From a virus: DNA of 27,133 bases. The stretch covers positions 1-27,133 of IMG/VR virus record IMGVR_UViG_3300042924_000756; one strand, given 5' to 3'. The notes under the pieces were generated by a model. That model was not told where the DNA came from, made no database searches, and was given only the letters and a program-made list of their open reading frames with translations. The number at the start of each line of letters is the position of its first letter. Position 1 is the first letter of the stretch. Below are positions 263 through 18,683 of the stretch, in pieces. Both the position numbers and the translations under genes were made by a program.

Positions 263-3200
263 TTATAAACCACATTCACGTTTAACCTTTTCCCCTAAAT
301 CTTCAATATCATATGGGTTAGGCATATCATTTATCATATCTCCCATAGTTTCTGCTTCTGCTTGAGCAAGATACGTAGGGTCCATGAATTTACTAAAATC
401 ACCAGGTAAATTTAATGCATTTCCTGTAGCATTAGTAGTAGGTTTAGATGTATTATTTTCCACAGCAGGTGTTGCTACTGGTTTAGTAACAGCAGGTATT
501 ATAGTAGTATCTGTAGCAAATAAATCAGCATCTAAATCATCAAGAGCATCTATTCCAACAATAGAGTCACTACTTGTAGGTTGTGCTACTATTGTAGTAG
601 TTGGTTGAACAGTAGCTGGAACTTGAGGAGCAGGTTGCCCTAAAGCAGCTAGTTGCTCATTAACTAACTTATCAATGTTGGAATTGATTTCATTAATTAT
701 ATCTTCTAATTCAAACTCCTCTAATTCATTTCTTACTTTTTGTTTAAATTCTTCTATAGTGTTAGATGTAAGATTGTATGGTACAGGAGGGAAAGAGCTA
801 AAACCATTAATAATTTTGCCAAGAGTAGATGTATATTGTAGTTCATAATCCTCTTCTGCAGGGCCCTCTAATTCATCTCCTTGATACTCAATTTCGTTTG
901 AAAAAGGTTCTGCATATCTATTTAAAATTGCTAAAGCTTTTCTTTCTGCTTCAGCTCTAGCATCTGTAGAAACAGGAGCTGGTGTTGTAACAGCAGCATT
1001 AAAAGGCTCTACTATTGTAGTAACAGCTTTAGCTTGTAAGTCTTCTTCTACTTCTACTGGTTTTTCAACAGTGCTAATGTTGTTTAAGTTCAAACCTAAG
1101 TTATAGTATACTGAGCCGTATTCGTTAACTACTGGAGTATCAGTACCTAGAATTGCTCGAGACCCCATACCATCCTCTCTATCATTTATAAGTTCTGTTT
1201 CTGAACTTAAGTATGCTCCATAACTATAATACTCAACTCCGGTAATTGGAGATACAAATGGAGCATTAGATGCAAGTCTTTCTTTAGATACTTGCATTTT
1301 CTTTTTGCTAAGCATTGACTTAAATTCTTCAGCAATAACTTCTCCGGATATTTTGTATGCTGCAGGATCTTTAGATACTGTTTTTAAATCAATACCTTTT
1401 TCATTTTCTTCAGCAACTACAAAAGAGAATGATGGTATTTGCCCATTTAGTGCTCTTACTAATTCAGCACGGCTTAGTGATATGTAACTATTAGCAGTAG
1501 GACTGAAGAAAGTAAATACGATATTACCTGATCTAGTCAAGTAAGCCATACTAAACTCTCTGTCATTCTTAACCATTTGAATAGCTCCATCCTCTTCAAC
1601 AGACCCAACCATATCATCTGGTAATGCTGCTACTGGAATAACATTAAATCCGATCAAATCAAACACTTTAATATGATCTGCAGCATCTTCACTTTGAAGC
1701 AATGAAATAGTGGTGTTAACTACTTGCTCATTAACATCTCTAGTTGACAATGGTATTGGAACTGGAGTACCGTCAGGGTTAAGTACAATTGCTATGATTT
1801 GACCAGGAGTAAACTCCCCACTTAATCCCTCTACAGAAGTAAGATCATACCCTTCTTGCATAGCAAGTACGGGCTGTATCTTATTTCCTTCTAAACGAGT
1901 TTGACCGACATAAGCTAAAGCTACAGTTTGTTCTCCCTCTATAGCAGAAAGAGGATAGAAGAATACATCTCCACTAACCATTCTACTATTAGCTATATTC
2001 TTACTTCCAAATAATTTAGTAGCATTAGCAATAGGAGTTAATCCTTGTTGTGCTAAATTGAATATGTCTTGTCTTGACTTACCAATATTAACTGCATTAT
2101 CAGGATTGTAAGCTTGTAGCATACCTACACGAACTCTTTCTCCAGTAGTTGGGTCAATAGTTATTACAAAAATTGGAACGTCAGTCCAATCAGTAAATTC
2201 AAAGTCTGTGTCTGTACGTACTTCAAACTCTACTTGGAAAGTTTGTTCAAATTCAGGACTAGTTAATACGTCTGGGTAAACTTCAATCTCTACCCCATTA
2301 ACTGTCTGCTTAATTTTATTAGCAGATGATGGGGCACCAGTTGGACTAACAAGTCGTTTAGTGTTTTCTCCAGATCCTATAGTTTCAAATTCTATCGGAG
2401 CTAATTGAACATCTAAGCTTCCTTGTATTACAACCGTTGGAGTTGAGTTAGCTGTTTGTTGAGCTGGTAAGTCTTGACTTTGTTGAGCAGGACTTGGGGT
2501 AACAGAAGCTCTAGCTATTTCAGCGTTCTTTTTACTGATTGCTTCAGCCTCTTCTTTATTTATACCTTCTGCCTGCGTAATTTCGATTCCTTCTGCAGGA
2601 GCGAAATCTGTTCTTGTAGCGTCTTGTTCTTCAGCCTCTGTCTGAGTTCCTTCGGCAGTCTGACTTTCGTCACTGCGTCCTTCAAGCTTTTCTGCATTTA
2701 CGTTATCTATTAAGTTATTACGTTTAGCTATCTTTTCTCTTACAATAGCTAGTTTTCTTTGAGTATCGGTCAAGCCGGCATAAAATTCCGGACCAGGAGA
2801 AAAGTCTGGCATTCTCATTAAACTAGTATAGCTTTCTATTTGAGCTACTAATTCAGATTCTTCATTTTTTAAAGCTTCGAGCTCAGCATTTACTGACTCA
2901 GTTATTTGTTCAGCTTCTACTTCTAAAGGAGCCTGTTCAATCTCTACTGGAATTTGACCTTGAGTTAAGTCTGCTTTTTCAGCTTTAGCTGCAGCTTTTC
3001 TTTCTTTCAAGATACCAATACGATAAGTCATAGCTTTTTGATAAGCTTGCTTTATCTTTTTAATATCTTTGACCATTTGTTCTTTATCAAATTCTTTTTT
3101 AGTAAATCCTGCCTCCTTAGCAATTTGCCATTCAACTTCTAATATTTCATTAGCTTCAGCAATTTCAGATCTTAATACTTCAATTTGAGCTCTTAAGTCT

Positions 3201-6200
3201 GCATCACTTAAACCGGAGACTTTTTGTGTTGAATTTATTACCCCATCTACCACAGCAGAAGGAGTACTGTCAACTTTCTTTCCTTCAGTTTTTTCAAACT
3301 CTAAAATCTTAACACTATCTTGTAAAGCAGCTTCTGCTTTTATTGCATTTTGCTCTTTGGCCTCTTCTAAAGTTTGAGTTTGATTTTCTCTTAATGAGTT
3401 ATCTTGTAAATAAATTATATACGAAAGAGCATCAACAACAGCATTTTCAAATTCAGATTGTTCGTTATATGCAGGATCGGCCGGATCGATTCTTTTAAAT
3501 GTTACGTAATTACCAGTAGCTACATCTAATAATCGTACTCCAACAATATTACCATTTTCATCTTCTAAGATAGCATTGATACTATCATCTTCAAAGTTCT
3601 GATACTTTCTACCATTAATAGTAAAAGTAGCATTATCTTTAGATACAGTTACTTCCCCAAAAGTTCTAGCTTCGACATCTGTTAACTCTGTAATAAAATC
3701 TGCAGTCTCTCCTTCTGGAGTAGCAACTGGCATGCCCGTTACAGATATAGTCTTAGCTTTAGTTTCTTCTCTCTTTCTAAGAGCTCGTCTGTATGCTAGC
3801 TTCTCTATATCTGATAAGTTTTCTTCATTAATAGCCCCGAAAGATTCTTCAGACATATTAGAGTATTCTTCTACAAGCTTATTTTCTTTTTCTAAAAGCT
3901 GTTTACGTTTCTCACGAGCAGCAGCTTTCTTTTCTGGGTCGGCTTGCTCAGGGAAATATTGCTCTAAGTCTTCACTAGTCTCAGCATTCTCAATAATAGT
4001 ATCAGCTTCTTTATTAGCATTCTCTTTATCTTCAGCTTGCTGAGCTTTAAATTGCTCAAGTATAAAGTTTTCAAGCTCTGCATTTGAAGATGTTAAAAGA
4101 CCAGTATATGAAATTAGACTACTTCTTCTAGCAATGTTAGACCTTAAGTCTGAAAATATTTTATTGAAAAGCATAGCATCTGCAGGGTTAGTTGCAACTA
4201 ATGCTTTATCTATCTCTTCAATTTGCTTATAAAGTTTATTATCTGGAAGAATATTTAACTTACTAGGATTTAGTCTAATTGTACCTTTTGAAGTATCAAT
4301 TTCTAAATCCCCAGTTTTGATAGCAAAAAGAATATCCGGAGTGATAAGACTAGTGATCTTACGTAGTGATGGGATATCCTCTCCAGCTTGCATTAGCTTA
4401 TCATAAGTTTCATCTATAGTAGCATCTAAAGTATCAATATCTGAGAAATTCCTTGCAACTAAATCAGCTGCCTCTCTTCTCAGTTGAACTCCCATTTGTC
4501 TAGCTAACTTAGTTTCAGTAGAGCCATTCATATTGAGTAGTCTAGAAATTAAATCATTAGATGGGGTATACCCTTGAAGTATATCCTCTACCTGCTCGAG
4601 TCTTTTAGAGTTTAATTTAGCTTTGTTTATTACATCATCAATTAACTCTGTTTGAGTCTTGCCAGTCTGCTCTTTAATTGTACGAGTTTCATCATAACCA
4701 AAGCTCTTAATAAATTCAGCTTCTGGTAAACCTTTAGCATCTTCTAATCTTTCATAGAAATAGTCCATTGCTCCGAGTTCACGGTAACGACGAGTTTCAC
4801 GATTAATAATTCTATTTCTATAAATTTCAGCAGAGGTTAAATCATTCTTTCCTAAAGCTTCTTTCATTTTAGCTACATCATCTAGATTAGCTTTACTATC
4901 TGCCATGTTAGAGATAAGATTCCCCATCACATCAGAGTTAAGCAAGTTGATTACCTTAGTAGTATTTTCAGCTTTAGCTTTTGCTAACTTTTTTTCAGCA
5001 CCAAACATTCTGCTTAGAGTGCCTGATCCTCCTCCGACGATAGCTCCAATAAGTACACTTTCAAGACCTTCTTTTGTACCAAAGGTTTTAGATAAGCCAC
5101 TAGTTATTGATTCAGCAAAATCATCACTTACCTGATACCTAATTGCAAATTCAGATCCTGCAAACTGCCCTGCTTCTTGGGCAGACTCGTAAGCCATATT
5201 CTTTGCAATAGGCTGCAGCATTTTATAAGACTTATTAAAGAATTTAGCTGTAGCTGCATCTGGAATATCTTCTATCCATTTTGGAGCTCCTTTGGTTCCT
5301 ACGTTCTTTATTCTATTAAAGCTTGGAGCTACTTTATTTTGTATTCCAAATATAGCTTTACCAAACATCATAAGGTTAGTTGGGACAAGAACAGCCATGT
5401 TAATACCAAAAGCTGTGTTACCAGCAGAATTACCATCAGCAGTAATCTGGTCCATAACTTCTAACGGCATTTCCATTCCTGGATTTTCTTCCTCCCACTT
5501 AGCTACTTGTTCTTCAATGTATCTTTTCTTTGTCTCACGAGCTTCAACAGATGCTTCAGCCAGTGACATTTGTGTACCTATAGTAGCATGCTGAGCTGCA
5601 GTTTTAATTTTAGCTCCACGAGAATAATTTTGTAATACTTTTCCAATATCAGCAGCTTTATCTCCATTGTTAATACCTTTAGCTACTTTATACATAGCAT
5701 TACGAGATGGGGAAATTAAACTTCCAACATCATCAACTTTAGTCATAACTTGACCAAGTTTCCCGATATTTCCCATCCTTCCTATTAAAGCTGCTTCCCC
5801 GGTACCAACAAACATAGAAGCAATAGAGCCGAGTGTATAACCAGCACCATTAGCTACTTTATCAGCCCAGAAGTTAGCTGTCCCTAAATTAGAAAGTACA
5901 GAGCCGTATTGCTCTTCTTGAGTGTAGTAATTTGGGAGTTCTGTTTGGGCCCATTCGTTAATAGAATCTATTCCTCTACCAACAGGGTTATCATAGAAGC
6001 TTCCATTCCCAAACATCATATTTCCTAATCCAGCTATTACTCCCACAGTGTTTTCTGCAAAAGCACCACCTGCGGTAATCAAAGCTTTAGTTAATCCGTT
6101 AACCCATTTTTCTCCAGTACCTTGATTCTGAGCTCGAGTTTCATTCCAATCTGCAAAAGGATCTAATGGTACACCATAATCAGTGTAATTTTGAATTGGT

Positions 6201-6403
6201 TCTGGATAAGCATTAGTTAAATCAATAGCTTGCCTTCTATCACTTAAAGGGTTTCTAGTAGGACCTCCAGAAAAATCCATTTCTTGGGATTTTAATCCGG
6301 TTAAAGCCTCCAATGTACTAAAGTTAGCATTAGATGTAGTATCCTTAGTACTTATTTCTGTTTCAGGAAGTCCTGTTAGTTTGCTTAATATAGATTCTGA
6401 CAT
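263..6403 (-). CDS. Giant virion protein, 2046 aa (probable cargo/ejection protein)
   Basis: This is the longest gene in the window: ATG at 6403, TAA at 263. About the first 470 residues hold four hydrophobic, Gly/Ala-rich stretches (roughly residues 106-131, 185-210, 328-354 and 449-465) separated by soluble segments. The middle is highly charged and helical, with coiled-coil-like Glu/Lys runs near 830-880 and 1060-1150. A more beta-like region follows around 1380-1800, and low-complexity Pro/Thr/Val/Gln linkers fill about 1880-2010. It lies next to other large proteins after the tail genes, the position of the packaged 'cargo' proteins of crAss-like phages. I looked for the DxDGD-type polymerase motif and did not find it, so this does not look like the catalytic RNA polymerase chain. 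Role inferred: packaged in the virion and ejected, with the N-terminal hydrophobic segments suited to membrane contact. No enzymatic domain was recognised. Confidence 0.8.
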   Translation of the reverse strand: MSESILSKLTGLPETEISTKDTTSNANFSTLEALTGLKSQEMDFSGGPTRNPLSDRRQAIDLTNAYPEPIQNYTDYGVPLDPFADWNETRAQNQGTGEKWVNGLTKALITAGGAFAENTVGVIAGLGNMMFGNGSFYDNPVGRGIDSINEWAQTELPNYYTQEEQYGSVLSNLGTANFWADKVANGAGYTLGSIASMFVGTGEAALIGRMGNIGKLGQVMTKVDDVGSLISPSRNAMYKVAKGINNGDKAADIGKVLQNYSRGAKIKTAAQHATIGTQMSLAEASVEARETKKRYIEEQVAKWEEENPGMEMPLEVMDQITADGNSAGNTAFGINMAVLVPTNLMMFGKAIFGIQNKVAPSFNRIKNVGTKGAPKWIEDIPDAATAKFFNKSYKMLQPIAKNMAYESAQEAGQFAGSEFAIRYQVSDDFAESITSGLSKTFGTKEGLESVLIGAIVGGGSGTLSRMFGAEKKLAKAKAENTTKVINLLNSDVMGNLISNMADSKANLDDVAKMKEALGKNDLTSAEIYRNRIINRETRRYRELGAMDYFYERLEDAKGLPEAEFIKSFGYDETRTIKEQTGKTQTELIDDVINKAKLNSKRLEQVEDILQGYTPSNDLISRLLNMNGSTETKLARQMGVQLRREAADLVARNFSDIDTLDATIDETYDKLMQAGEDIPSLRKITSLITPDILFAIKTGDLEIDTSKGTIRLNPSKLNILPDNKLYKQIEEIDKALVATNPADAMLFNKIFSDLRSNIARRSSLISYTGLLTSSNAELENFILEQFKAQQAEDKENANKEADTIIENAETSEDLEQYFPEQADPEKKAAAREKRKQLLEKENKLVEEYSNMSEESFGAINEENLSDIEKLAYRRALRKREETKAKTISVTGMPVATPEGETADFITELTDVEARTFGEVTVSKDNATFTINGRKYQNFEDDSINAILEDENGNIVGVRLLDVATGNYVTFKRIDPADPAYNEQSEFENAVVDALSYIIYLQDNSLRENQTQTLEEAKEQNAIKAEAALQDSVKILEFEKTEGKKVDSTPSAVVDGVINSTQKVSGLSDADLRAQIEVLRSEIAEANEILEVEWQIAKEAGFTKKEFDKEQMVKDIKKIKQAYQKAMTYRIGILKERKAAAKAEKADLTQGQIPVEIEQAPLEVEAEQITESVNAELEALKNEESELVAQIESYTSLMRMPDFSPGPEFYAGLTDTQRKLAIVREKIAKRNNLIDNVNAEKLEGRSDESQTAEGTQTEAEEQDATRTDFAPAEGIEITQAEGINKEEAEAISKKNAEIARASVTPSPAQQSQDLPAQQTANSTPTVVIQGSLDVQLAPIEFETIGSGENTKRLVSPTGAPSSANKIKQTVNGVEIEVYPDVLTSPEFEQTFQVEFEVRTDTDFEFTDWTDVPIFVITIDPTTGERVRVGMLQAYNPDNAVNIGKSRQDIFNLAQQGLTPIANATKLFGSKNIANSRMVSGDVFFYPLSAIEGEQTVALAYVGQTRLEGNKIQPVLAMQEGYDLTSVEGLSGEFTPGQIIAIVLNPDGTPVPIPLSTRDVNEQVVNTTISLLQSEDAADHIKVFDLIGFNVIPVAALPDDMVGSVEEDGAIQMVKNDREFSMAYLTRSGNIVFTFFSPTANSYISLSRAELVRALNGQIPSFSFVVAEENEKGIDLKTVSKDPAAYKISGEVIAEEFKSMLSKKKMQVSKERLASNAPFVSPITGVEYYSYGAYLSSETELINDREDGMGSRAILGTDTPVVNEYGSVYYNLGLNLNNISTVEKPVEVEEDLQAKAVTTIVEPFNAAVTTPAPVSTDARAEAERKALAILNRYAEPFSNEIEYQGDELEGPAEEDYELQYTSTLGKIINGFSSFPPVPYNLTSNTIEEFKQKVRNELEEFELEDIINEINSNIDKLVNEQLAALGQPAPQVPATVQPTTTIVAQPTSSDSIVGIDALDDLDADLFATDTTIIPAVTKPVATPAVENNTSKPTTNATGNALNLPGDFSKFMDPTYLAQAEAETMGDMINDMPNPYDIEDLGEKVKRECGL

Positions 6404-6410
6404 AATTTAC

Positions 6411-8690
6411 TTATGGGTTAAAGAATGGGATGCCGGTCCCTTTTTGTTTACCTACTAATAAAGCCTGTATAGTTGGGTTATCCATGTTTTCAAATTCAGC
6501 TTTATTTACTTCAATTAAATTACCTTTACTGTCTACTTTATATCCTTTTCCTTCTGAATTTTCAATTTTAATTAAAGGATTATCATCACCATTACTTCTT
6601 ACTGTTACTCTTAAGTTTTGATTAGGATTAAAGTTGTTATACAAATCAAAACTCATTTCATCACCTTTATTTCTAGTATTGTATTTATCAACAGTAGTAG
6701 CAAATTTCATTAGATTAGATTCCATATAATTCTGTAATTGAGGACTAGTTACACGTTTAGAATCTAACATAACAGTTTTTGTATTGCCATCCCCATCAAC
6801 TAATTGTAATTCCCATCCACCATTTTCTCCATATTCTGGAGCAAACCCGTATTTATTAACTTTGTAACCAGTCAGATCAGATCCTTTTGTATTAATTCCA
6901 GCATCGTCTCCTGAAATATTTACAACTTCCATATCAGAAGGTATAACCATATTTTTAAAATACCCTTCTGCAGCTTTTGTTGCTAAACGAGATTCTTCAG
7001 GAGTCATTCCTGGTAAAGCTCCGTAGTGTACTAAAGTAGAAGTTTTAATCTCTTTAAACTTATCACTAACATCTGATCTAGTTGCAAGTTTTTCAAATTT
7101 ATTTAAAAGCTGCTGTGAACTCACTTTAGTTTCATCATCAATATCAATGATGTCTTCAGAATTAGTAGAGTATCTATTAATATAATTTTCAAATGAGGTT
7201 TTAAATTTATCTTGAAAAGCTAATTGAAATTTAACTCCCTCATTAGAAAATGGATTAGTAAGTACTTCTTTTAATTTATTCAAAGTTTCTCCACTAGTTG
7301 TAGTTCCAAAAGTTTCTTTAATTGTTTGAACAACTGATGGGTCAATAGCTTCAATTTCTTTAATACTGACTGATTTATCAATAGCAAGATCAATTTGCTG
7401 TTGTATTCTTAATGCTTCTGCTTTTAATCGTTTTCCTCTATCTTGTCTTTCTCTTTTTACATCTGCACTAATTCCTTCTTCTTCAGCATCTCTGTAAGCA
7501 GCCATTGAAGCTTCAAACATTTTAGTCATATTCCCACGTTGCTCTTCAACAGTAGCCCCGTCTCTAATATCAGCGGTAACATTAGTATATCCAGTCATTT
7601 GTGGGTTATTCATCTCCCAATCTTTTTGAGCTTTATATCCAGCTAACCACTTTTGATCATAATCAATCATTCTTGACTGACTTACATTTTGATATGAAGC
7701 AGCTTCAAGCACAAACTCTTCCATAGGCCTGAACATATCATTAGCAAGTCTTTGTCTTACGTATTGATATCCAGCTTGTTCGTCTTGACTTGCACTGTTT
7801 ATAGTTTCTAGTTCAGAACGTAGCTTAGCTACAGTATTTAAATACTGCTTTTTAGTTGAAGTGTTTAATCGACCGGATTCTATCTCTTTAGTAAGTTGAT
7901 CGATAGTACTTGATATTCTTTGACTTTGAGATTGTAAAGCTTCCGGAATACGTCCTTGAGAGTACAAGTTATAAGCTTGCATATCAGACATTTGCCCTAT
8001 ATAAGCTTTAACATCTGGCTCATCCATTACCATATTAATAGCTTGTTGGACAACTTTTGGATCAATTCCTTTACTACTTCCTTCTACCGTAACTTTATAC
8101 ATGCCATCTGGCCCTTGAGCTACGTTCATATTCTTATTTGAATATTCTTCAGGCTTAATTATCTCAATAGCTTTTTTAATCCTATCAAATACTTTAGGGT
8201 CTTTTATAATACCAGGAGCAGCAAACATTGACCCTTCTTTAACTCGGCCGGTTTCCGGATCCATCTCAAATCCTTTATACCCTCTCGTCATATAATTTTT
8301 ATACAACTGAGCATACTCTGCATTAATATCACCTTTTTCGTAAGCTTTACTTACTTCTTGCAAAGCACCCTGGTACCTCTTATAGTTTTCTTCAATTGGA
8401 GCATAATCTTTAGCAAATTGCTTAGCTGTACGGTGAATCTGAAATCCAAGATTCTCGTAGTCACCTCTTTCTGCAAGTTGAGCCAATGCATTCTCAGTCT
8501 GACGTTGTAGCTCTCTTTTACGAGTAACGTCATTCTCAAATGCAGATGCTGCCTGCATTTGTTCTACAGCCATAGTTAACTGATCATTTGCTTGAAAGTT
8601 AGATAGGAATCTTTCTCGTAAAGTCTCAGATATTTTAACTGATTGAGGGTCAACATAAGTTGACACATATTCTCCAAATCTATAAGGCAT
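6411..8690 (-). CDS. Helical virion protein, 759 aa (probable cargo protein)
   Basis: ATG at 8690 and TAA at 6411, only 7 nt before the next gene. The first ~480 residues are almost all predicted helix, rich in Gln, Glu, Lys, Ala and Arg, with no hydrophobic membrane stretch. The N-terminal MPYRFGEYVSTYVDP is followed by long amphipathic helices. From about 500 onward the protein turns more beta-like, with short strands and Asn/Asp/Gly turns near the C-terminus. I recognise no enzymatic motif. Its place between two other large proteins, all downstream of the tail genes, fits the set of internal virion proteins that crAss-like phages carry in the tail barrel or capsid for delivery. That role is inferred from position and composition. 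A scaffold-like or tail-chaperone role cannot be excluded from sequence alone. Confidence 0.8.
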   Translation of the reverse strand: MPYRFGEYVSTYVDPQSVKISETLRERFLSNFQANDQLTMAVEQMQAASAFENDVTRKRELQRQTENALAQLAERGDYENLGFQIHRTAKQFAKDYAPIEENYKRYQGALQEVSKAYEKGDINAEYAQLYKNYMTRGYKGFEMDPETGRVKEGSMFAAPGIIKDPKVFDRIKKAIEIIKPEEYSNKNMNVAQGPDGMYKVTVEGSSKGIDPKVVQQAINMVMDEPDVKAYIGQMSDMQAYNLYSQGRIPEALQSQSQRISSTIDQLTKEIESGRLNTSTKKQYLNTVAKLRSELETINSASQDEQAGYQYVRQRLANDMFRPMEEFVLEAASYQNVSQSRMIDYDQKWLAGYKAQKDWEMNNPQMTGYTNVTADIRDGATVEEQRGNMTKMFEASMAAYRDAEEEGISADVKRERQDRGKRLKAEALRIQQQIDLAIDKSVSIKEIEAIDPSVVQTIKETFGTTTSGETLNKLKEVLTNPFSNEGVKFQLAFQDKFKTSFENYINRYSTNSEDIIDIDDETKVSSQQLLNKFEKLATRSDVSDKFKEIKTSTLVHYGALPGMTPEESRLATKAAEGYFKNMVIPSDMEVVNISGDDAGINTKGSDLTGYKVNKYGFAPEYGENGGWELQLVDGDGNTKTVMLDSKRVTSPQLQNYMESNLMKFATTVDKYNTRNKGDEMSFDLYNNFNPNQNLRVTVRSNGDDNPLIKIENSEGKGYKVDSKGNLIEVNKAEFENMDNPTIQALLVGKQKGTGIPFFNP

Positions 8691-8701
8691 ATCTTAAATC
8701 T

Positions 8702-8956
8702 TTAAACTTTTGTTTTATTATATTTCAACTGTCCAAGTCTAGACACATACTTTTTAACTCCACCTTTTTGTTTTTCTTCTTTAGGTTTAGGCTGTGGAGC
8801 TACAATATTGACAGGATATTTCTCAGCTGCAATATTAAGTATTTCATCTTCAGTTAGACCATAGTAAGGTGAAGTTTTTTTCTTTCTGTCTTTTAGTGCT
8901 TTTTCTACAAAGTTGAATCGATCATAACTTCCAGTTTCATCTACAGCTCTTGAGCT
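8702..8956 (-). CDS. Open frame without a usable start; probable small gene broken by 1 nt
   Basis: The minus-strand frame is open from 8956 (just after an in-frame TAA) to the TAA at 8704-8702 and contains no ATG, GTG, TTG or CTG start before its last few codons. The translation looks like real protein: an acidic/aromatic start (GSYDRFNFVEKALKDRKKK), a helix (LTEDEILNIAAEKYP), a Pro/Lys linker and a basic tail with KGGVKKYVSRLGQL. Directly after the TAG of the 813-aa gene is an ATG (8940-8938), but it reads in another frame and stops after 11 codons. One extra A in the AAA following this ATG would give a clean 79-aa gene starting MKTGSYDRF. Otherwise the frame is -1 relative to the 813-aa gene and could be a C-terminal extension made by frameshifting, but I see no slippery heptamer. 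Product function unknown. Confidence 0.5.
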   Translation of the reverse strand, partial: SSRAVDETGSYDRFNFVEKALKDRKKKTSPYYGLTEDEILNIAAEKYPVNIVAPQPKPKEEKQKGGVKKYVSRLGQLKYNKTKV

Positions 8957-11382
8957 TTATATTGTAACCGATCTCTATAAATACCAGTAGCTCCTCTAAC
9001 TCCAGCTTCTAGAGCCCCAAGTGTCTCTTCTCTCTTGTATTGCTTTTCCCCAATTTCAACTTGTTTGTTAAATTGAGCAATATCAGCTCTCATAGCATCA
9101 GACTTAAGTCCAGCTTCAACATTAAATTGAGAGGCCTGTTGACCCAATCTAGCTTCTTCTGCAGCTAACCCTAAATTAGCTTTTTGTTCTTGGTCAGCTA
9201 TTTGAAGCATCTGATCATTAAGCTTAGAGTTAGTTGCCATCATAGCAGCAATTCCTCCAGGACCAGCATTTTGATTTTGTATGGCTGTTTTAATACCTTG
9301 AGTAAGTTGAGTGGCTGAAGCTCTTTCTTGATTCATGTTAACTCTTGGAAGAACAGCTCCTTTAACACTTGCAGGCCCCGGTCCAACAGCAATAGGAGCA
9401 GCTGGTTTGTAAGGATTAAGCAAGGCATATCCTGCAGGTACCATTTGTAGAGCCCCGAATAACAAACCTTTATCCATACCTTCATTTATCTCACCTTTAG
9501 GCATAGCTACACAATTACCATTTCTATCACGGTATTGCCCAGGAGGACAAGCTTGATATTTTTCTGGAAGTTCAGGGGCAGGTGGTATAGCAGGAGTTTC
9601 ATTTTTAACATCCTCTACTTTAACATCTTCTTTTTTAGGCTCATCTTTAAGTTTAGCATTTTCCATAGCTAATCTAACTGCTTCGTGGAAAATGCCGGGG
9701 TCATTATCTGTAGCTTCTTTTCTAATTATTTTTACAAGGTCAGCTCCAGTTTTACCTGCTGCTCTAAGTTTTACTTGTTCTGCAAAAGGGTCTGTAGAAG
9801 CTGCATATGTTTCAATATACTTAGCTACTTCAGCAGCAGTGTCTTCATCATTTAAAGCTGTATTAACTTCATTTTTCCAAGTCTCATAGTTTTCTGGAGC
9901 CCAAATAGGATTCTTTTTAGCATTTTCAAACTGTGGAAGAAGTTTTGGATCTTTAGCTCCAATTAATTTATCTTTAGTTTCAGTAGCTCCTTCTTTAATT
10001 ACAGTAGCAGTTTTATTTTCCCCAGCAGTTTGATATTTACGAACACCTCCGTAAGCAGCTATTTGTTTTGGATTACGGCCGGCTATCTTTTCTTGCTTTT
10101 CAGCTAGAGCTTGAATTTGTTCTTGACTAGCACCAGACTTAACCATACCTTCGTGAATCTTAGCAAAGGACTTGCCTCCGAGTTTTAAATACTCAGAAAA
10201 GAAATATTCTTTAGACTGTACTTTTCCACCCTTTTTCATTAGTACTGTATCTTTAGTTTCGTTGTTCTCTACCTCTGTAAGTGGACCTTCCATTATCCCA
10301 CCTTCATCGTGAGTGTTACCTATGTACTTAACTTCACCGTTAGGTCCAATTGGAATTTCGTATCCTCCAGGAAGCTGTTTAGCTCCTCCTAATTGAGCAT
10401 AAAAAGAAGGGGTAGATTGCATGTCCATATTAGTAGAGCTTGCATATCCAAATCCGGTTTGTGGTCCGGCCAATCTAGATCTTAAAAATGCTGAATTATA
10501 ATCTCCTGCAATTCTGGTTTTTTCTTCTTTTAATCTTTCAGCTTCTTTTTTAGCTTCTTTATTTTCTTTACCTGCTTTAATAGCCCCAACACCTGCTCCA
10601 ATACCTGCTCCTATGATTCCTCCAATTACATTCCCAACTCCGGGGAGAATAGATCCAGCAGCAGCACCGATACTAAAACCAGTACCTGCAGATTTAAGCA
10701 TGCTTCCTCCTACATTACCTCGAGATTCTTTTTTAGTGAAAGTATAAGGATTATCATCGTCAGCTCTATTCTCTATAACAGTACCAGCAATATTAGCTCC
10801 TATTCCAATTCCAGCACTTGCTAAACCTGACATTTGAGGAACAGTAGAAGCAGCAGTGGATGCAACAGTAGATGTGGTAGAAGCAGCTTTACCAGCACCG
10901 GCAGCAGAAGCATCAAATACTTGTGCTGTAGGAGTAGGCCCAACTGTGCTGCTTAATATTGAACTTCCAGAATCAGCAACTGGTGCCACTCCAGGGGCAG
11001 CACCGAATGGCTGAGAGGCAGCAAGAGAAGCTTGGCCAGCATCTACTGGTTTAGGTACCATAAATTTCCCTAGTATCCCCTTTGATGCATCAGACTGAGC
11101 AGCTTTTACTAGTGACCCAGCTCCTTTAGTTATTGCTTGGTTTTGAGTTTGTTTTTTTCTTTCTACAGAAGCTTCTTGAGCTTTTTTAGAGGCTATCTCA
11201 ATTTCTTCTGTTTCTGTTAACACTCTCCCTAAACTAGCTTCAGCTACAGCCCTATCTTCTTCACTAAGTACAGGAGTAGCACTCAACCCGATAGCATTAT
11301 ACCCTAAAGAGTAATCAGTTGTACTTTTAGGACCTGCAAATTGGTATTTATTAATTTTCTTTTTTAAGGGTTTCTTTTTCAT
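8941..11382 (-). CDS. Large virion protein with glycine-zipper segment, 813 aa
   Basis: The ATG at 11382 overlaps the stop of the upstream tail gene (TAATG), implying coupled translation; the gene ends with the only TAG stop in the window. Layout: a very basic N-terminus (MKKKPLKKKINKYQFAG); an Ala/Ser/Thr-rich low-complexity region (about 100-200); a Gly/Ile/Ala-rich hydrophobic stretch at about 233-271 with repeated GxxxG spacing; a Lys/Glu helix; and a compact module at about 335-455 with HDEGGI, EYFFSEYLKLGGKSFAKIH and GGVRKYQTAG. After an Asp/Glu/Lys region comes a Cys pair (CPPGQYRDRNGNC, near 614-626) and a Gln/Ala helical C-terminus. The module at 335-455 is one I recall from large structural proteins of Bacteroidota phages. 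Glycine zippers can insert into membranes, so a cargo protein helping DNA cross the envelope is plausible but inferred. Confidence 0.82.
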   Translation of the reverse strand: MKKKPLKKKINKYQFAGPKSTTDYSLGYNAIGLSATPVLSEEDRAVAEASLGRVLTETEEIEIASKKAQEASVERKKQTQNQAITKGAGSLVKAAQSDASKGILGKFMVPKPVDAGQASLAASQPFGAAPGVAPVADSGSSILSSTVGPTPTAQVFDASAAGAGKAASTTSTVASTAASTVPQMSGLASAGIGIGANIAGTVIENRADDDNPYTFTKKESRGNVGGSMLKSAGTGFSIGAAAGSILPGVGNVIGGIIGAGIGAGVGAIKAGKENKEAKKEAERLKEEKTRIAGDYNSAFLRSRLAGPQTGFGYASSTNMDMQSTPSFYAQLGGAKQLPGGYEIPIGPNGEVKYIGNTHDEGGIMEGPLTEVENNETKDTVLMKKGGKVQSKEYFFSEYLKLGGKSFAKIHEGMVKSGASQEQIQALAEKQEKIAGRNPKQIAAYGGVRKYQTAGENKTATVIKEGATETKDKLIGAKDPKLLPQFENAKKNPIWAPENYETWKNEVNTALNDEDTAAEVAKYIETYAASTDPFAEQVKLRAAGKTGADLVKIIRKEATDNDPGIFHEAVRLAMENAKLKDEPKKEDVKVEDVKNETPAIPPAPELPEKYQACPPGQYRDRNGNCVAMPKGEINEGMDKGLLFGALQMVPAGYALLNPYKPAAPIAVGPGPASVKGAVLPRVNMNQERASATQLTQGIKTAIQNQNAGPGGIAAMMATNSKLNDQMLQIADQEQKANLGLAAEEARLGQQASQFNVEAGLKSDAMRADIAQFNKQVEIGEKQYKREETLGALEAGVRGATGIYRDRLQYKAQEL

Positions 11383-14300
11383 TATCTAAAGGATTGTCTG
11401 TATGCAACAGAGGCTGAATACAAATTTATTAAAGTTTTGCTTTCGTTGTTAGCAATTAATCTAACTCCTATAAATTTATCTACAAACTTTCTTTTTTCAT
11501 ACCAAGGTTTGTTAGGGTTTATATAAGCTGTATTTATAACACCTTCTGTCACAAACATTGAAATAGTTTGTGACGTTACTGTAGAACCTAAGTAATCATC
11601 ACCTTGAACATTAACCTGTCCATTTACTAGACTTGTACTTACAACAGTATTAGATAAATCTCTAAAGTCGTTAAATGACCACTCGTTATCAGTTTTTCTT
11701 ATATTCTTTAAGTATACTAATTCTGTTTCCCCACTTATTTGTGTAGTATTGTAAATGTAGAAGCTAGTAAATCCAGGGTTAAATTGTTGTTTAACTTGCT
11801 GAATACTTCTAGGAGTTTTAGTAAATACATCTGTAAAGAATTTGACAGATTGTGCTATTTTATCTTGAATTTTACTATTCATTATACCTTGTTGAGATCT
11901 TACAATTTCACCAGTCATAATAAAATCAATTTCAAAATTGGCCAGTTTATCATAAATAAGGCCTGGATTTTCCATATCATCGTGGCTATACATTTTACTT
12001 GGAAAGCTTGGATCGAAGCTGTACAAAGTTGTAGAGTTATATGCATATAAAGGAGGCAAGTAAGTATGTCTACTAGCCCATACTTTGAATGTAGTAGAAA
12101 AACTTAAGGTCCAACCTGATTTAACAAAGTATGTAGGATCTGCAAAATTTAACTTTTTATTTTGCTTTTTATTAATGAATACATTTTCAACTGGATCGTA
12201 TACAATTGTACCATTATTAAACAAGGTAATAAAAGTTTGAGTTGGGGCTATCTCTTTTTTAGTGATAAGTATTCTAGAAAACCCAGGATCGTAAGAAGTA
12301 ATAAATCCATAGTCCCCAGTTGGGGCATCTATATTAATGTCTGTAAAATTGTATCCAAAAGCTTCTAAAGTAAATGGTATATTTTCGTCACACCAAGTAT
12401 CTAAACCATTCTCACTTAACTCGGCAACTTGGCCGGCAATTAAGAAAATCTTTCTTGCCTTGTAAGCTACAAATACATATCCTTCTTTGGTAAGTAAAGA
12501 GCTAAACAAGTTGTAATTTCCTACATACCCTTCTTGAGTTTGAATAAACTCGTCAGGTTCTTGAGCAAATAGATCCCCGGTACCAATGTAAGCTTGGGTA
12601 GCGTCTCCGAGTTCTAAGTTTTGTTTACCTTTAGTTCTAAATAAGCTACGTTCAGTGTGAATATAAAGCAGGTTGTCAAGTTTAAAGATATTAGTAATCT
12701 GCCCTTTATTTTGAGCAAAGTCTTTGTAATCCAATGCTAAAAAATAGCTGTAAGTATCATTGAAATTCCCATCTTGAACTACAGATCTAATTACCCTATT
12801 AGGGAATAGATTAGTTGACTTATCTCTTTTTGAGAATGGGATAGTAACTCTAATATCTTGTACTAAAGAATACTGATCTTCATACAAGATATTATCCATC
12901 TTAGTTAAGTCTGCTAACGGACTTCTGTATACTACATCGGCCGCTGTAAACTTATCAAAGTATAAACTATTACTAACAGGTACTCCTTTTTCAGTATCTC
13001 CAGCATGTCTAAAATTTATGTTATCGTCAGACTCTACAAAGTATTGGATAACTGTAGATACTGGGTCAACATCTCCTTTTACCCAGTTATTTTCATTTGC
13101 AATAGTATGCAATCTTTGGTCTAAATTACCAACTCCCCATAATACTCTGATTCCATAAGTATTTCCAGCTGTTATGTTTACAGGAATATCCCCATATAAA
13201 AATCTACCCCAATCAGCATTAGCATTGCCCGGATGGGAAGCATTAGTACCTTTAACAAAATACTTCATTGCAAAACTTTGAGATGTAACTCGATATCCGT
13301 ATCTACAAATAAAAGTATCTCCCCCAAATATTGCATTTGTGGTTACTCCGGTATAATATGAATCTATATCAGCTTTTTGAAATGGATTTTCTCCTTGACC
13401 TGTTTCATAATCTATTTTAGAATCTATTGGGTGGTAATATCCAGTAAATACTAATTGCTGAGCATCAAAAGGTTCAAACACATCTGTCTTTGCAGAACAT
13501 AGATTTAGTAAGTAAAAGTTAGGTCTTCCTATACTAGCCTCTGATTTTTGAATAGTAGTTCTGTTCGGTAAAAGTGTTACAAATTCGTCTACCACATAAG
13601 CTTCCCCACCTTTATTCAACCAAGCATCTGAATAAAATCCTCTTAGCACTGGTAAACCTGAAGCTAGACTTAAAGCTATTGAAGATTCTCCACTGTTATT
13701 AACTAAATAAGTAGCTCCTTTAAATGCCGTACTAGATACATTTTTAAGGAAAGATAATCCTTGTAAGTAAGTAGCACCGTCAGGTTCAATCATAAAGACG
13801 GAACGAAGACCTGATAATATTTGATCTTGGTTTGATTGTGTCCAATATCCACTTGAAGAACCGGTACCAACATCTATACCGGCTTGCCCAGGACGTGAAT
13901 ACTTGGCTGCAATAACAACTCTTCCATCTAAATTTTTTGGGCCAGGTACATCAAAGAGTGAGTCATTTGGATTATATTCATAATCTATAGTATTCCCTAA
14001 ATCAGGATGCACCCATGCATAATCATCATCTCCATAAGCTGCACGAAATGTTTTAAATCTATAGTCTACTCCTGTAATTCCTCCAATTCCTCCTCCTTCA
14101 ATTCCAATTACAGTCGGAATTGCATTTTTATACCCACCTCTCCAATATTGCATAGTCATAACATATTGGATGTCGACGTGAGTAGTAGTAGCTACAGTAT
14201 GCTTTTTTCTAAGCAAGTTAAAATCATGCATTTGAATTACTGGGTGCCCTAAATAAGTACCAGAAGTAGCTGCATTTTCGGTAATTAAAGAACGAGAGTG

Positions 14301-16361
14301 AGTAAACCCACTCATATACCACATCATGTGTTTAGAGTCTTTTATTGCATTTTCTCTTTGATTAGCTATACTACCTGCTAATATTGGGACTGCAGGAAAG
14401 CTAGCACTCTGCCCAATAATAGTTTTATTAGGTTGAGTTCTTTTAGCATAATAGACTTTAAATCCTTGAATTTGCTCAAGGATAAATCGTGGTATTTTGA
14501 TATCGCTAAGTCGTACAAAAAGTATTCTAACAGATTCTTCGAATGTAACATCTCCCTCGTCACCTGAATCATTACTTAGGTTAGGAGTTGAAAAATCAAA
14601 GCCGTGCTCAATAAAAGAGAAGTTAGCATTTTTATTAGACGGCATCTTATGGTGTCTTACTTTTTTATTTGTTAACGTATCTTCATATTGAGGAATACCT
14701 AATGAGTTAGTTCCCCATATTTCAAACTCTGGAGAGCTGGGATAAGTTTCATGTTGGTTCTCCCAAAAACCCGTAGATTCGTTTGTAGTTAAAAGAGAAG
14801 TATCTGCGTATTGGTATACCAACGCTTTTGGGTCAAATCTTGCAGTCTCTTCTAAACCAGGAACATTTATAACTTGCTCTTTTTCTGTATCATTAACTAT
14901 ATTACGGCCAGGAATATGATAGGCAAAAGTCTCTGAGCCATCTTTTAATACTAAAGAGATGTAAAATGCATAAACTTCTCCACGTCTGTAAGTCTTCTTT
15001 TTATATAAAAGAGAGCTATCTCGATATCCTTTAGAAGCATTTTTTTGTAAAGCAATGATATTTTCAAGGTATGGAAACATTTTACCATCCTGTTTCCAAT
15101 AATCAGTAGGGACTATAGATTGATCTTGTTCCCCATTAGAGGCATCTGGATTTATAATTTTAGCATAACCTTCATTCAAGTTATAGTGATCATAACGACG
15201 TGGGTCAAAGTTTTCTATTTTTTGTGTTCCTACACTTAGCTTAATACGATTAGCAAATCTTTGAAAACCTAAATCTTTTCGGCCGGTCAAATTGGCCATA
15301 TATAATCTATTATCAAGCTGTGTTAACGATCGACATGTTAAATACCTAACCTTATCTATAATTGTATCTTCTACTGCTGCAGATGCTACTGTTTCTATTC
15401 CACTGTAAACAATGTTAAAGTTCGTAGATATCTCCACTGGTTCTAACTTATATACAAATTGAGCTGTTCCAACTCTTTGAATAACGTATGGAACAACGTA
15501 TTTATAATCAGACGAAGATATTTCTACTTCCCAAGAAATTGATTTAGCTGTTTGAGTTTCGTTAGGGGCTCCACTGATCATTTCAAATGGAATAGTAGCC
15601 TCATCTGCAGGTACTATGTAGACAGGGTTTGATACTGTAAGTACGTTAGTTTCAGTAGAATCTTCATCTGCATAAGACAAGCCTAAGAAGTAAGTACCTG
15701 ACTCAACTCCTCCCCCACGAAGTATTTGAACATCATTGAATTGTGGTATTGGGCCAGAATGCTTAAAAATATTCAGAGTTTCAATCTTAGCTCCTGGTAA
15801 ATTGTATAAATAAAATGGAGTAGCTAATGGGTTATCAGCTAAGAATTTTTTCTGTTTGCTGACATTAAATACTCTTGGGGGATTGTAACTAGAAATATAA
15901 TTAATACCAGTATTAGGTTCTGTTGCTAAGTTATAGTAATTATCTGTAAAATAGATAATTATATCTCCTGTTGGAGATATTCTAAATTCTCCGTAAACTG
16001 TGTGATTAAGATCAAAGTTAAGATCTCCTAGTTCAGGTTGTAATAGACCGGAGTTACCTGGAGTAATAAGTAAAAATTCAAAGCTATTTACTTTAGTATC
16101 AACGTAAGTAATGTAAGATCTACTACCCTCTACTCCAAAGATGATGAAATCATCGTTTGGTAAGGCAATTTGACCTACAGGGTTAACTAAACGGTTTTGA
16201 CTTGTTATTATATTAACGGTTAGTTTAGTACCGTATTCATTACTTACAGCTAGTTTAGTAGGGTCAATAACTGCATTTAATGCATCACGGTAGGTGTCAT
16301 CTGGCTGATCAGCTCGGCCAGTATCCTTAAACATTCCTTTTAAAAACTTCAAGTTTACCAT
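11382..16361 (-). CDS. Very large tail protein, 1659 aa (crAss tail muzzle / P22 gp10-like)
   Basis: ATG at 16361, TAA at 11384-11382 sharing one base with the next ATG. The N-terminus (MVNLKFLKGMFKDTGR, then YRDALNAVIDPTKLA) is followed by almost continuous beta-structure with many aromatic residues and Asn/Gly turns, and no hydrophobic helix. Residues about 1200-1330 carry strand-turn repeats such as LLYIHTERSLFRTKGKQ and GYVFVAYKARKIFLIAG, which resemble the beta-propeller-like tail hub/stabilisation proteins of the P22 gp10 type. In crAss-like phages a protein of this size and position forms the outer end of the short tail (the 'muzzle'), sitting after the ring proteins and before the cargo proteins; the same order is seen here. 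Family assignment rests on recalled sequence pattern, length and synteny. A tail-fibre role is less likely because the typical fibre repeats are absent. Confidence 0.85.
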   Translation of the reverse strand: MVNLKFLKGMFKDTGRADQPDDTYRDALNAVIDPTKLAVSNEYGTKLTVNIITSQNRLVNPVGQIALPNDDFIIFGVEGSRSYITYVDTKVNSFEFLLITPGNSGLLQPELGDLNFDLNHTVYGEFRISPTGDIIIYFTDNYYNLATEPNTGINYISSYNPPRVFNVSKQKKFLADNPLATPFYLYNLPGAKIETLNIFKHSGPIPQFNDVQILRGGGVESGTYFLGLSYADEDSTETNVLTVSNPVYIVPADEATIPFEMISGAPNETQTAKSISWEVEISSSDYKYVVPYVIQRVGTAQFVYKLEPVEISTNFNIVYSGIETVASAAVEDTIIDKVRYLTCRSLTQLDNRLYMANLTGRKDLGFQRFANRIKLSVGTQKIENFDPRRYDHYNLNEGYAKIINPDASNGEQDQSIVPTDYWKQDGKMFPYLENIIALQKNASKGYRDSSLLYKKKTYRRGEVYAFYISLVLKDGSETFAYHIPGRNIVNDTEKEQVINVPGLEETARFDPKALVYQYADTSLLTTNESTGFWENQHETYPSSPEFEIWGTNSLGIPQYEDTLTNKKVRHHKMPSNKNANFSFIEHGFDFSTPNLSNDSGDEGDVTFEESVRILFVRLSDIKIPRFILEQIQGFKVYYAKRTQPNKTIIGQSASFPAVPILAGSIANQRENAIKDSKHMMWYMSGFTHSRSLITENAATSGTYLGHPVIQMHDFNLLRKKHTVATTTHVDIQYVMTMQYWRGGYKNAIPTVIGIEGGGIGGITGVDYRFKTFRAAYGDDDYAWVHPDLGNTIDYEYNPNDSLFDVPGPKNLDGRVVIAAKYSRPGQAGIDVGTGSSSGYWTQSNQDQILSGLRSVFMIEPDGATYLQGLSFLKNVSSTAFKGATYLVNNSGESSIALSLASGLPVLRGFYSDAWLNKGGEAYVVDEFVTLLPNRTTIQKSEASIGRPNFYLLNLCSAKTDVFEPFDAQQLVFTGYYHPIDSKIDYETGQGENPFQKADIDSYYTGVTTNAIFGGDTFICRYGYRVTSQSFAMKYFVKGTNASHPGNANADWGRFLYGDIPVNITAGNTYGIRVLWGVGNLDQRLHTIANENNWVKGDVDPVSTVIQYFVESDDNINFRHAGDTEKGVPVSNSLYFDKFTAADVVYRSPLADLTKMDNILYEDQYSLVQDIRVTIPFSKRDKSTNLFPNRVIRSVVQDGNFNDTYSYFLALDYKDFAQNKGQITNIFKLDNLLYIHTERSLFRTKGKQNLELGDATQAYIGTGDLFAQEPDEFIQTQEGYVGNYNLFSSLLTKEGYVFVAYKARKIFLIAGQVAELSENGLDTWCDENIPFTLEAFGYNFTDINIDAPTGDYGFITSYDPGFSRILITKKEIAPTQTFITLFNNGTIVYDPVENVFINKKQNKKLNFADPTYFVKSGWTLSFSTTFKVWASRHTYLPPLYAYNSTTLYSFDPSFPSKMYSHDDMENPGLIYDKLANFEIDFIMTGEIVRSQQGIMNSKIQDKIAQSVKFFTDVFTKTPRSIQQVKQQFNPGFTSFYIYNTTQISGETELVYLKNIRKTDNEWSFNDFRDLSNTVVSTSLVNGQVNVQGDDYLGSTVTSQTISMFVTEGVINTAYINPNKPWYEKRKFVDKFIGVRLIANNESKTLINLYSASVAYRQSFR

Positions 16362-17761: not shown

Positions 17762-18457
17762 TTAAATCATAGGTACATCCATGCATTCTCCACTATAACA
17801 TCCTGTTCTTCCTTTCTTTTGTTTTTTACGAGCAGCAGATCCACGTTTTCTAGCAGCAGCAGAAGCATTTATTTTCTTACGTTTTTTAGGAGGAGTCATA
17901 TTTTGAGAAGTTTTACTCATATTGCTTTCCATATCCATGTCTTCATTAAATCCACCTTCCTCTTTTCTAGCACGGCCTTTAGCAGCCATTTCCTGAAACT
18001 TAGATTTACCACCAGCTTTGTAAAGTTTCTTTTTACCTCCCATCATTTTTTCATCTTTTTTAGGCATTGAAGGGTATCCAAATTCTACTTCTTTAGATTC
18101 TTCTAAAAAAGATGCTTTTTCTTTAAGCTTTTTAGCTCGTTCGGCCTGTCTAGCTGCTTTGTTCAATTTTTGGCTAGCATAAGTCTCTGGAATAGATGTG
18201 CTGCTTTTAGCCTCATCTTCCATAGCATCTTGTCCTTTTTTCCAATTCTTTTGAGCCTTAGACATGACTTTATCTGCTCTTTTATTAAGTCTAGCAGATT
18301 TTTTACCACCATCTTTATATTTATCCATTGCTTCTTCTTTTTTAATTTTAGCTTCTTGCTTAAGCATCTCTTTAGTCGGCTTTTTACCTGACCCTCGTTT
18401 TGCTCTAATATTATTCCAAAGGGAGTTTTTAACTCCCAGCTTATTTAGCTTTGCCAT
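17762..18457 (-). CDS. Lys/Arg-rich 231-aa protein with C-terminal Cys motif
   Basis: I place the start at the ATG 18457-18455 (MAKLNKLGVKNSLW). The in-frame TTG at 18508 would add 17 residues and a longer overlap with the upstream gene. With the ATG start the overlap is 17 nt. The protein is extremely basic: Lys and Arg clusters throughout (KKRKK, RKKQKKGR) with little hydrophobic core, long helices with Ala/Glu/Lys, and repeated Gly-Gly-Lys segments (KYKDGGKK, MMGGKKKLYKAGGKSK). It ends GCYSGECMDVPMI, giving two Cys residues in a short tail. This composition suits nucleic-acid binding or a disordered internal virion protein packed against DNA. No family recognised. It lies 4 nt before the IHF-like gene start, inside the connector gene cluster, so a head-tail assembly or DNA-packaging role is plausible but unproven. 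Confidence 0.75.
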   Translation of the reverse strand: MAKLNKLGVKNSLWNNIRAKRGSGKKPTKEMLKQEAKIKKEEAMDKYKDGGKKSARLNKRADKVMSKAQKNWKKGQDAMEDEAKSSTSIPETYASQKLNKAARQAERAKKLKEKASFLEESKEVEFGYPSMPKKDEKMMGGKKKLYKAGGKSKFQEMAAKGRARKEEGGFNEDMDMESNMSKTSQNMTPPKKRKKINASAAARKRGSAARKKQKKGRTGCYSGECMDVPMI

Positions 18458-18683
18458 TACTTTTCCCGAATTTAATTTCTTTATCAGGCTCCATGAAATT
18501 GCCGGCAATAGATGCAGCTTCAGCTGCTACTTCTTTTGCTCTTTTAGCTACTTCTTTCATAAGAGTTTTATCTTTAGTTAGCTCGTTGTAATCTTTAATT
18601 GTACGTAGAGCTGACTCAATCTTCCATGTACGATCTTCTTCGATCATAGATAGTCCTTTATTCTGCGTCTTCTTTTTTGCCAT
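18441..18683 (-). CDS. Short helical protein, 80 aa (or 68 aa from an internal start)
   Basis: Two starts are possible. The ATG at 18683 gives MAKKKTQNKGLSMIEE and overlaps the upstream gene by 26 nt. The ATG at 18647-18645 gives a 68-aa protein beginning MIEEDRTWKIESALRTI, lies just after the upstream stop, and has AAAGGA about 6 nt upstream, an uncommonly good Shine-Dalgarno match for this window. The core is a charged helix pair (WKIESALRTIKDYNELTKD, then Lys/Glu/Ala helix) with no membrane segment and a Lys/Gly-rich end. The 'W+.ES..RT' pattern recalls short conserved proteins that sit in structural gene clusters of marine and Bacteroidota phages, whose function is not known to me. No enzymatic motif is visible. 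Confident as a coding gene because of strand, overlap pattern and composition. Confidence 0.72.
   Translation of the reverse strand: MAKKKTQNKGLSMIEEDRTWKIESALRTIKDYNELTKDKTLMKEVAKRAKEVAAEAASIAGNFMEPDKEIKFGKSNGKAK

Follow-up and report, generated by a model that had tools for sequence, protein, structure and literature searches.

A stretch of viral DNA of 27,133 nt (IMG/VR record IMGVR_UViG_3300042924_000756; the whole stretch is called the window below) carries, between two putative cargo genes, a minus-strand frame that is open over 8702–8956 and has no start codon near its beginning. This locus raises the question of whether the frame is a small gene of its own, an extension of the preceding 813-aa protein, a fragment detached from another gene or a frame open by chance. 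The features concerned are the following:

263..6403, minus strand: 2046-aa gene at the position of gp47 (RNA-polymerase-associated cargo), by gene order only
6411..8690, minus strand: next gene, 759 aa, at the position of cargo protein C2 (gp46), with a conserved N-terminus (MPYRFGEYVSTYVDPQSVKISETLR)
8702..8956, minus strand: probable severed, out-of-frame C-terminal tail of the cargo gene, 84 codons plus TAA
8941..8959, minus strand: overlap of two frames, from the TAA of the tail frame to the TAG of the 813-aa frame
8947..8948, minus strand: junction at which 13 nt present in relatives are missing (CAAGA/GCTGTAG)
8941..11382, minus strand: putative truncated cargo gene (gp45/C1-like), an ATG ORF of 813 aa ending in ...YKAQEL-TAG and devoid of the C-terminal tail of relatives
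11382..16361, minus strand: preceding gene, 1659 aa, virion structural protein at the muzzle (gp44) position

A Coding Frame without a Start Codon

As the first-pass annotation had described, the frame is open for 84 codons (8705–8956), is closed by a TAA at 8704–8702 and lies between the two cargo genes. It is the −1 frame of the 813-aa ORF, whose 3' end reads ...TAT AAA GCT CAA GAG CTG TAG with the TAG at 8943–8941, and its initial residues (SSR) overlap the final codons of that ORF. ATG, GTG, TTG and CTG are absent until codon 71, and the earliest ATN codon is an ATA at codon 39. Since only 0.035% of mononucleotide shuffles of this stretch remain open and clear homologues of the peptide occur in related phages, over a span from about AVDETGSYDRF to GGVKKYVSRLGQLKYNKTKV, the frame goes beyond chance, and a random origin was rejected. 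The earlier view that it represents real coding sequence is thus confirmed.

Regarding the neighbouring genes, the 759-aa gene begins 11 nt past the TAA of the frame, a spacing that is similar in relatives, and the gene at 11382–16361 matches phrog_15100 and structural proteins of Flavobacterium, Cellulophaga and crAss phages. The first 36 residues of the 759-aa C2-like protein (YVSTYVDPQSVKISETLR, window 8583–8690, minus strand) are far better conserved than the remainder and, as far as conservation can suggest, might constitute a binding or packaging signal.

The Frame Corresponds to a C-Terminal Tail in Related Phages

Searches with the 84-aa peptide alone gave no match in phage records or viral contigs, and neither megablast of the region nor tblastn of both cargo proteins gave a match among deposited phages, while Pfam and PHROGs held no family for either cargo protein. 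Relatives were reached via the conserved N-terminus of the 759-aa gene, which led to 20 viral contigs, some of them duplicates; the 15 crAss-like contigs with a readable cargo-gene 3' end were kept. A profile built with the tails of these relatives produced matches in viral contigs, by which three further relatives (L045, L058 and L059) were added, all of them continuous in a single frame, and none in prokaryote genome contigs. No contig of the same species was found with a gapped DNA pattern around the joint.

In all 15 readable relatives, one long ORF (750–1330 codons) is located upstream of the next gene, and the region corresponding to the start-less frame forms its in-frame C-terminal tail. 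This ORF ends 5–22 nt before the next gene or overlaps it by a few nucleotides. The tail itself is alignable in 10 of the 15, plus the three added later. The nearest relative, L045, is intact and shows 56% identity over the cargo protein and 48% over the tail, which ends in GGIKKYVSRLGDLKYNKVKV compared with GGVKKYVSRLGQLKYNKTKV in the window; the tail of L004 (AQERLAKALDETGSYDRFTILEQLQRESKRKNSPY...KLGGVRQYVSRLGELN) is another aligned example. In relatives, the tail is built from predicted short helices followed by a linker that is charged and disordered and by a basic end of the form GG-x-R/K-x-Y-x-S-R-L-G, and the joint preceding it reads A-Q/T-E-R-L-A-x-A-x-D-E-T-G-S-Y in most of them. A comparison of the peptide with the same region of crAss-like relatives, as proposed in the first-pass annotation, therefore recovered similar sequence but no separate protein, since the region is always a C-terminal tail. 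The more distant L019–L022 possess another C1 tail (TGDMGIYERDRLR...) without the SRLG motif and L010 has a changed tail motif, so this end of the protein is replaceable rather than universal.

These data bear directly on the proposal of a separate small gene of 79–84 aa, the start of which would have disappeared when one base of an A-run was deleted. The text ATGAAACTGG does stand directly after the TAG of the 813-aa ORF, and the ATGAAA at this place speaks for such a gene. However, no relative has a free-standing ORF, and the supposed clean 79-aa gene is the C-terminus of the cargo protein in every one of them. Moreover, the homology begins at about AVDETGSY, upstream of the A-run, and continues through it, which does not fit a single A missing after the TAG; what is missing is a net 13 nt, a few bases upstream, within the last codons of the 813-aa ORF. 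The idea of a stand-alone peptide is likewise contradicted by this homology and by the SSR overlap, and a separate gene is extremely improbable.

Several further observations were made on the C1-like and neighbouring proteins. The middle region of the C1-like protein is variable: L045 (788–4264) has about 250 extra residues that the window protein does not have, corresponding to about window position 10015 (minus strand), near C1 residue 457, between two well-conserved parts. A GG-x-R/K-K-Y-like motif recurs in the C1-like middle (YGGVRKYQTAG, window 10018–10060, minus strand), in the tail (GGVKKYVSRLG, window 8740–8765, minus strand) and, in a loose form, in a 248-aa ORF at 17762–18508 on the minus strand (MMGGKKKLYKAGG). 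This recurrence exceeds the shuffled expectation for a pattern that was picked after the fact, and relatives retain the motif at the middle and tail sites. In L018 (IMGVR_UViG_3300020044_002453), the C2 N-terminus on the plus strand is overlapped by unrelated phage-like genes on the minus strand, and this contig looks chimeric.

The Lesion at the Joint

In a DNA alignment of the joint with twelve relatives, the window shows one clean 13-nt gap, located between CAAGA and GCTGTAG. The missing codons include R166 and A168, which are invariant in the 12-sequence alignment A7, and the shortening eliminates the near-invariant R-L-A, places the TAG immediately after and leaves the tail out of frame. 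The homologues are continuous across the break and the net length difference is not a multiple of three, as in a frame-disrupted gene. The missing start codon was rightly taken as a sign of an indel or frame change, given that the relatives are in frame and the window is 13 nt short. In L005, three nucleotides are absent at nearly the same place, i.e., 10 nt more are present than in the window, and this natural loss of one codon indicates that an in-frame length change is tolerated at the joint.

When every ORF of 60 codons or more in seven relatives was compared with the window by tblastn, the C1-like gene was the sole split gene, matched in frame −2 and then in frame −1; the remaining two-frame matches were plus-strand antisense shadows across gene borders. 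A low-quality contig with multiple lesions was rejected, as no second split gene was found against the seven relatives.

A change in the meaning of TAG is known in some crAss-like phages, and decoding of this codon as an amino acid would be another way to extend the 813-aa protein. Among the 19 window genes checked, the sole TAG stop is that of the 813-aa ORF, and that no other of these genes ends in TAG speaks for recoding. However, readthrough would keep the 813-aa frame and yield a short unrelated end (ELxMKLEVMIDSTLxKKH) followed by TAA, and thus recoding has almost nothing to recommend it.

The start-less frame is almost certainly the frame-severed C-terminus of the 813-aa gene, irrespective of whether a deletion or an artefact separated the two. 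Behind this reading stand several observations: the tail has homologues, relatives carry it in frame, the window is 13 nt short at the joint, and no other gene is split. In the proposed mechanism, the tail of a C1-like cargo protein, which in relatives is the end of one uninterrupted protein, would have been detached when a net 13 nt were deleted where a long predicted helix ends. Ribosomes would run into the TAG as soon as the shared residues end (at YKAQE). The product of the gene as assembled would be 813 aa long and would lack the C-terminal ~85 residues, while the tail DNA, having no start codon, would remain untranslated. An AlphaFold model of the last 255 residues of L045, which with a mean pLDDT of 69 and a pTM of 0.34 is only a guide, has one long helix that stops just beyond the R-L-A site and is followed by two short helices and by a basic, disordered end. 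According to this model, the break would fall where the long helix stops, so that both short helices and the basic end would be lost. The prediction of the middle domain was poor (pLDDT 44).

Programmed Frameshifting

The first-pass annotation had held that relatives with the peptide fused to the 813-aa protein would favour frameshifting. The fusion was indeed found, but the relatives encode it continuously, in one frame without any shift, and the two-frame arrangement is not conserved. Programmed −1 frameshifting, by which some of the 813-aa molecules would be extended with the tail, agrees with a tail frame that is open, overlapping, under constraint and in the −1 position relative to the 813-aa frame. 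Nevertheless, only 13 nt lie between the stops of the two frames, the last 60 nt of the 813-aa frame, and hence the shared 13 nt, contain no X_XXY_YYZ heptamer, and the product of a shift would still be devoid of the near-invariant R-L-A. Since the shared 13 nt have no slippery site and the R-L-A codons are missing, a simple deletion or artefact is preferred, and programmed frameshifting is very unlikely. Equally slight is the probability that the shortened joint is real and the tail is made by an unusual −1 shift or by start-less re-initiation at the TAG; if true, an ejected cargo protein would come in a short and a long form. The stretch is most likely an ordinary frame-disrupted C-terminus, neither a new gene nor a programmed frameshift.

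Real Deletion or Artefact

Whether the lesion exists in the phage can be approached through the constraint on the severed tail. In the comparison with L045, in which synonymous sites are close to saturated, the tail gives a dN of 0.490 and the 170 codons immediately upstream of it one of 0.489, and under neutral drift a stop would arise in the tail after a median of 14 substitutions. The tail has thus barely drifted since the break, which means that the lesion is recent, or absent from the real genome, or that the tail is still made. The mean tail identity of the window to relatives is 0.39 vs 0.49 among relatives, and the corresponding values for the upstream part are 0.42 vs 0.43. The lower-than-expected identity of the window tail could hint at some relaxation; L010 has the same tail identity score as the window, though it is unbroken.

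The probable explanation is that the assembled phage variant has recently undergone a real deletion. Against it stands the high cost to be expected from cutting a conserved virion protein, given that the assembled consensus carries this allele. The alternative is that the real gene is intact and that bases were lost at the joint during sequencing or assembly, possibly as a natural in-frame codon loss combined with a one-base error. This second explanation is distinctly less probable but has several arguments in its favour: no other lesion disturbs a reading frame in the 27 kb, the tail remains under full constraint, and the one-codon loss in L005 shows that an in-frame change can occur naturally at this joint. 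However, a clean 13-nt gap is atypical of a single-base consensus error, the joint is not a homopolymer run, and the composite version requires two independent events. On the favoured reading of a recent deletion, we infer that the phage genome itself carries it and that the protein actually made is the truncated one.

For annotation, 8702–11382 should be treated as one disrupted cargo gene instead of an intact gene followed by an orphan small gene. In addition, cargo proteins from a group of environmental crAss-like phages can now be described by a conserved C-terminal tail with a GG-x-R/K-x-Y-x-S-R-L-G end. Should the deletion prove real, this phage would be a natural test of the need for the tail in packaging or ejection.

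Comparison with Known Systems

The C1-like genes of environmental IMG/VR crAss-like contigs (L045, L004, L005, L006, L007, L011, L012 and others) show 31–56% identity over the cargo protein and, as in the window, have a homologous tail and the same neighbouring genes. Unlike in the window, their joint is intact and 13 nt longer (10 in L005), with the tail in frame, and most of these genes are longer owing to the variable middle region.

Among characterized phages, position and weak profile similarity point to crAss001 gp45 (cargo protein C1) as the equivalent of the 813-aa gene. When gene order was set against MH675552 and PMC10172136, the window and crAss001 presented the common order gp44 muzzle(-like), gp45 (C1), gp46 (C2) and gp47, a large RNAP-associated protein. 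The window protein is similar in length to gp45 (842 aa) and shares with it a lysine-rich N-terminus and a glycine-rich hydrophobic segment. A PDB sequence search with the window cargo protein gave no match, nor did the hhalign comparison of the C2-like protein; for the C1-like protein, hhalign (77%) aligned window residues 712–801 with gp45 692–770 in a weak, local and collinear match. The gp45 of crAss001 binds the portal and tail barrel and should exit N-terminus first (PMC10172136), and its C-terminus would accordingly sit in the capsid. Beyond the matched segment, gp45 likewise extends to a basic GG-rich C-terminus, which contains no SRLG motif and, unlike that of the window, is in frame.
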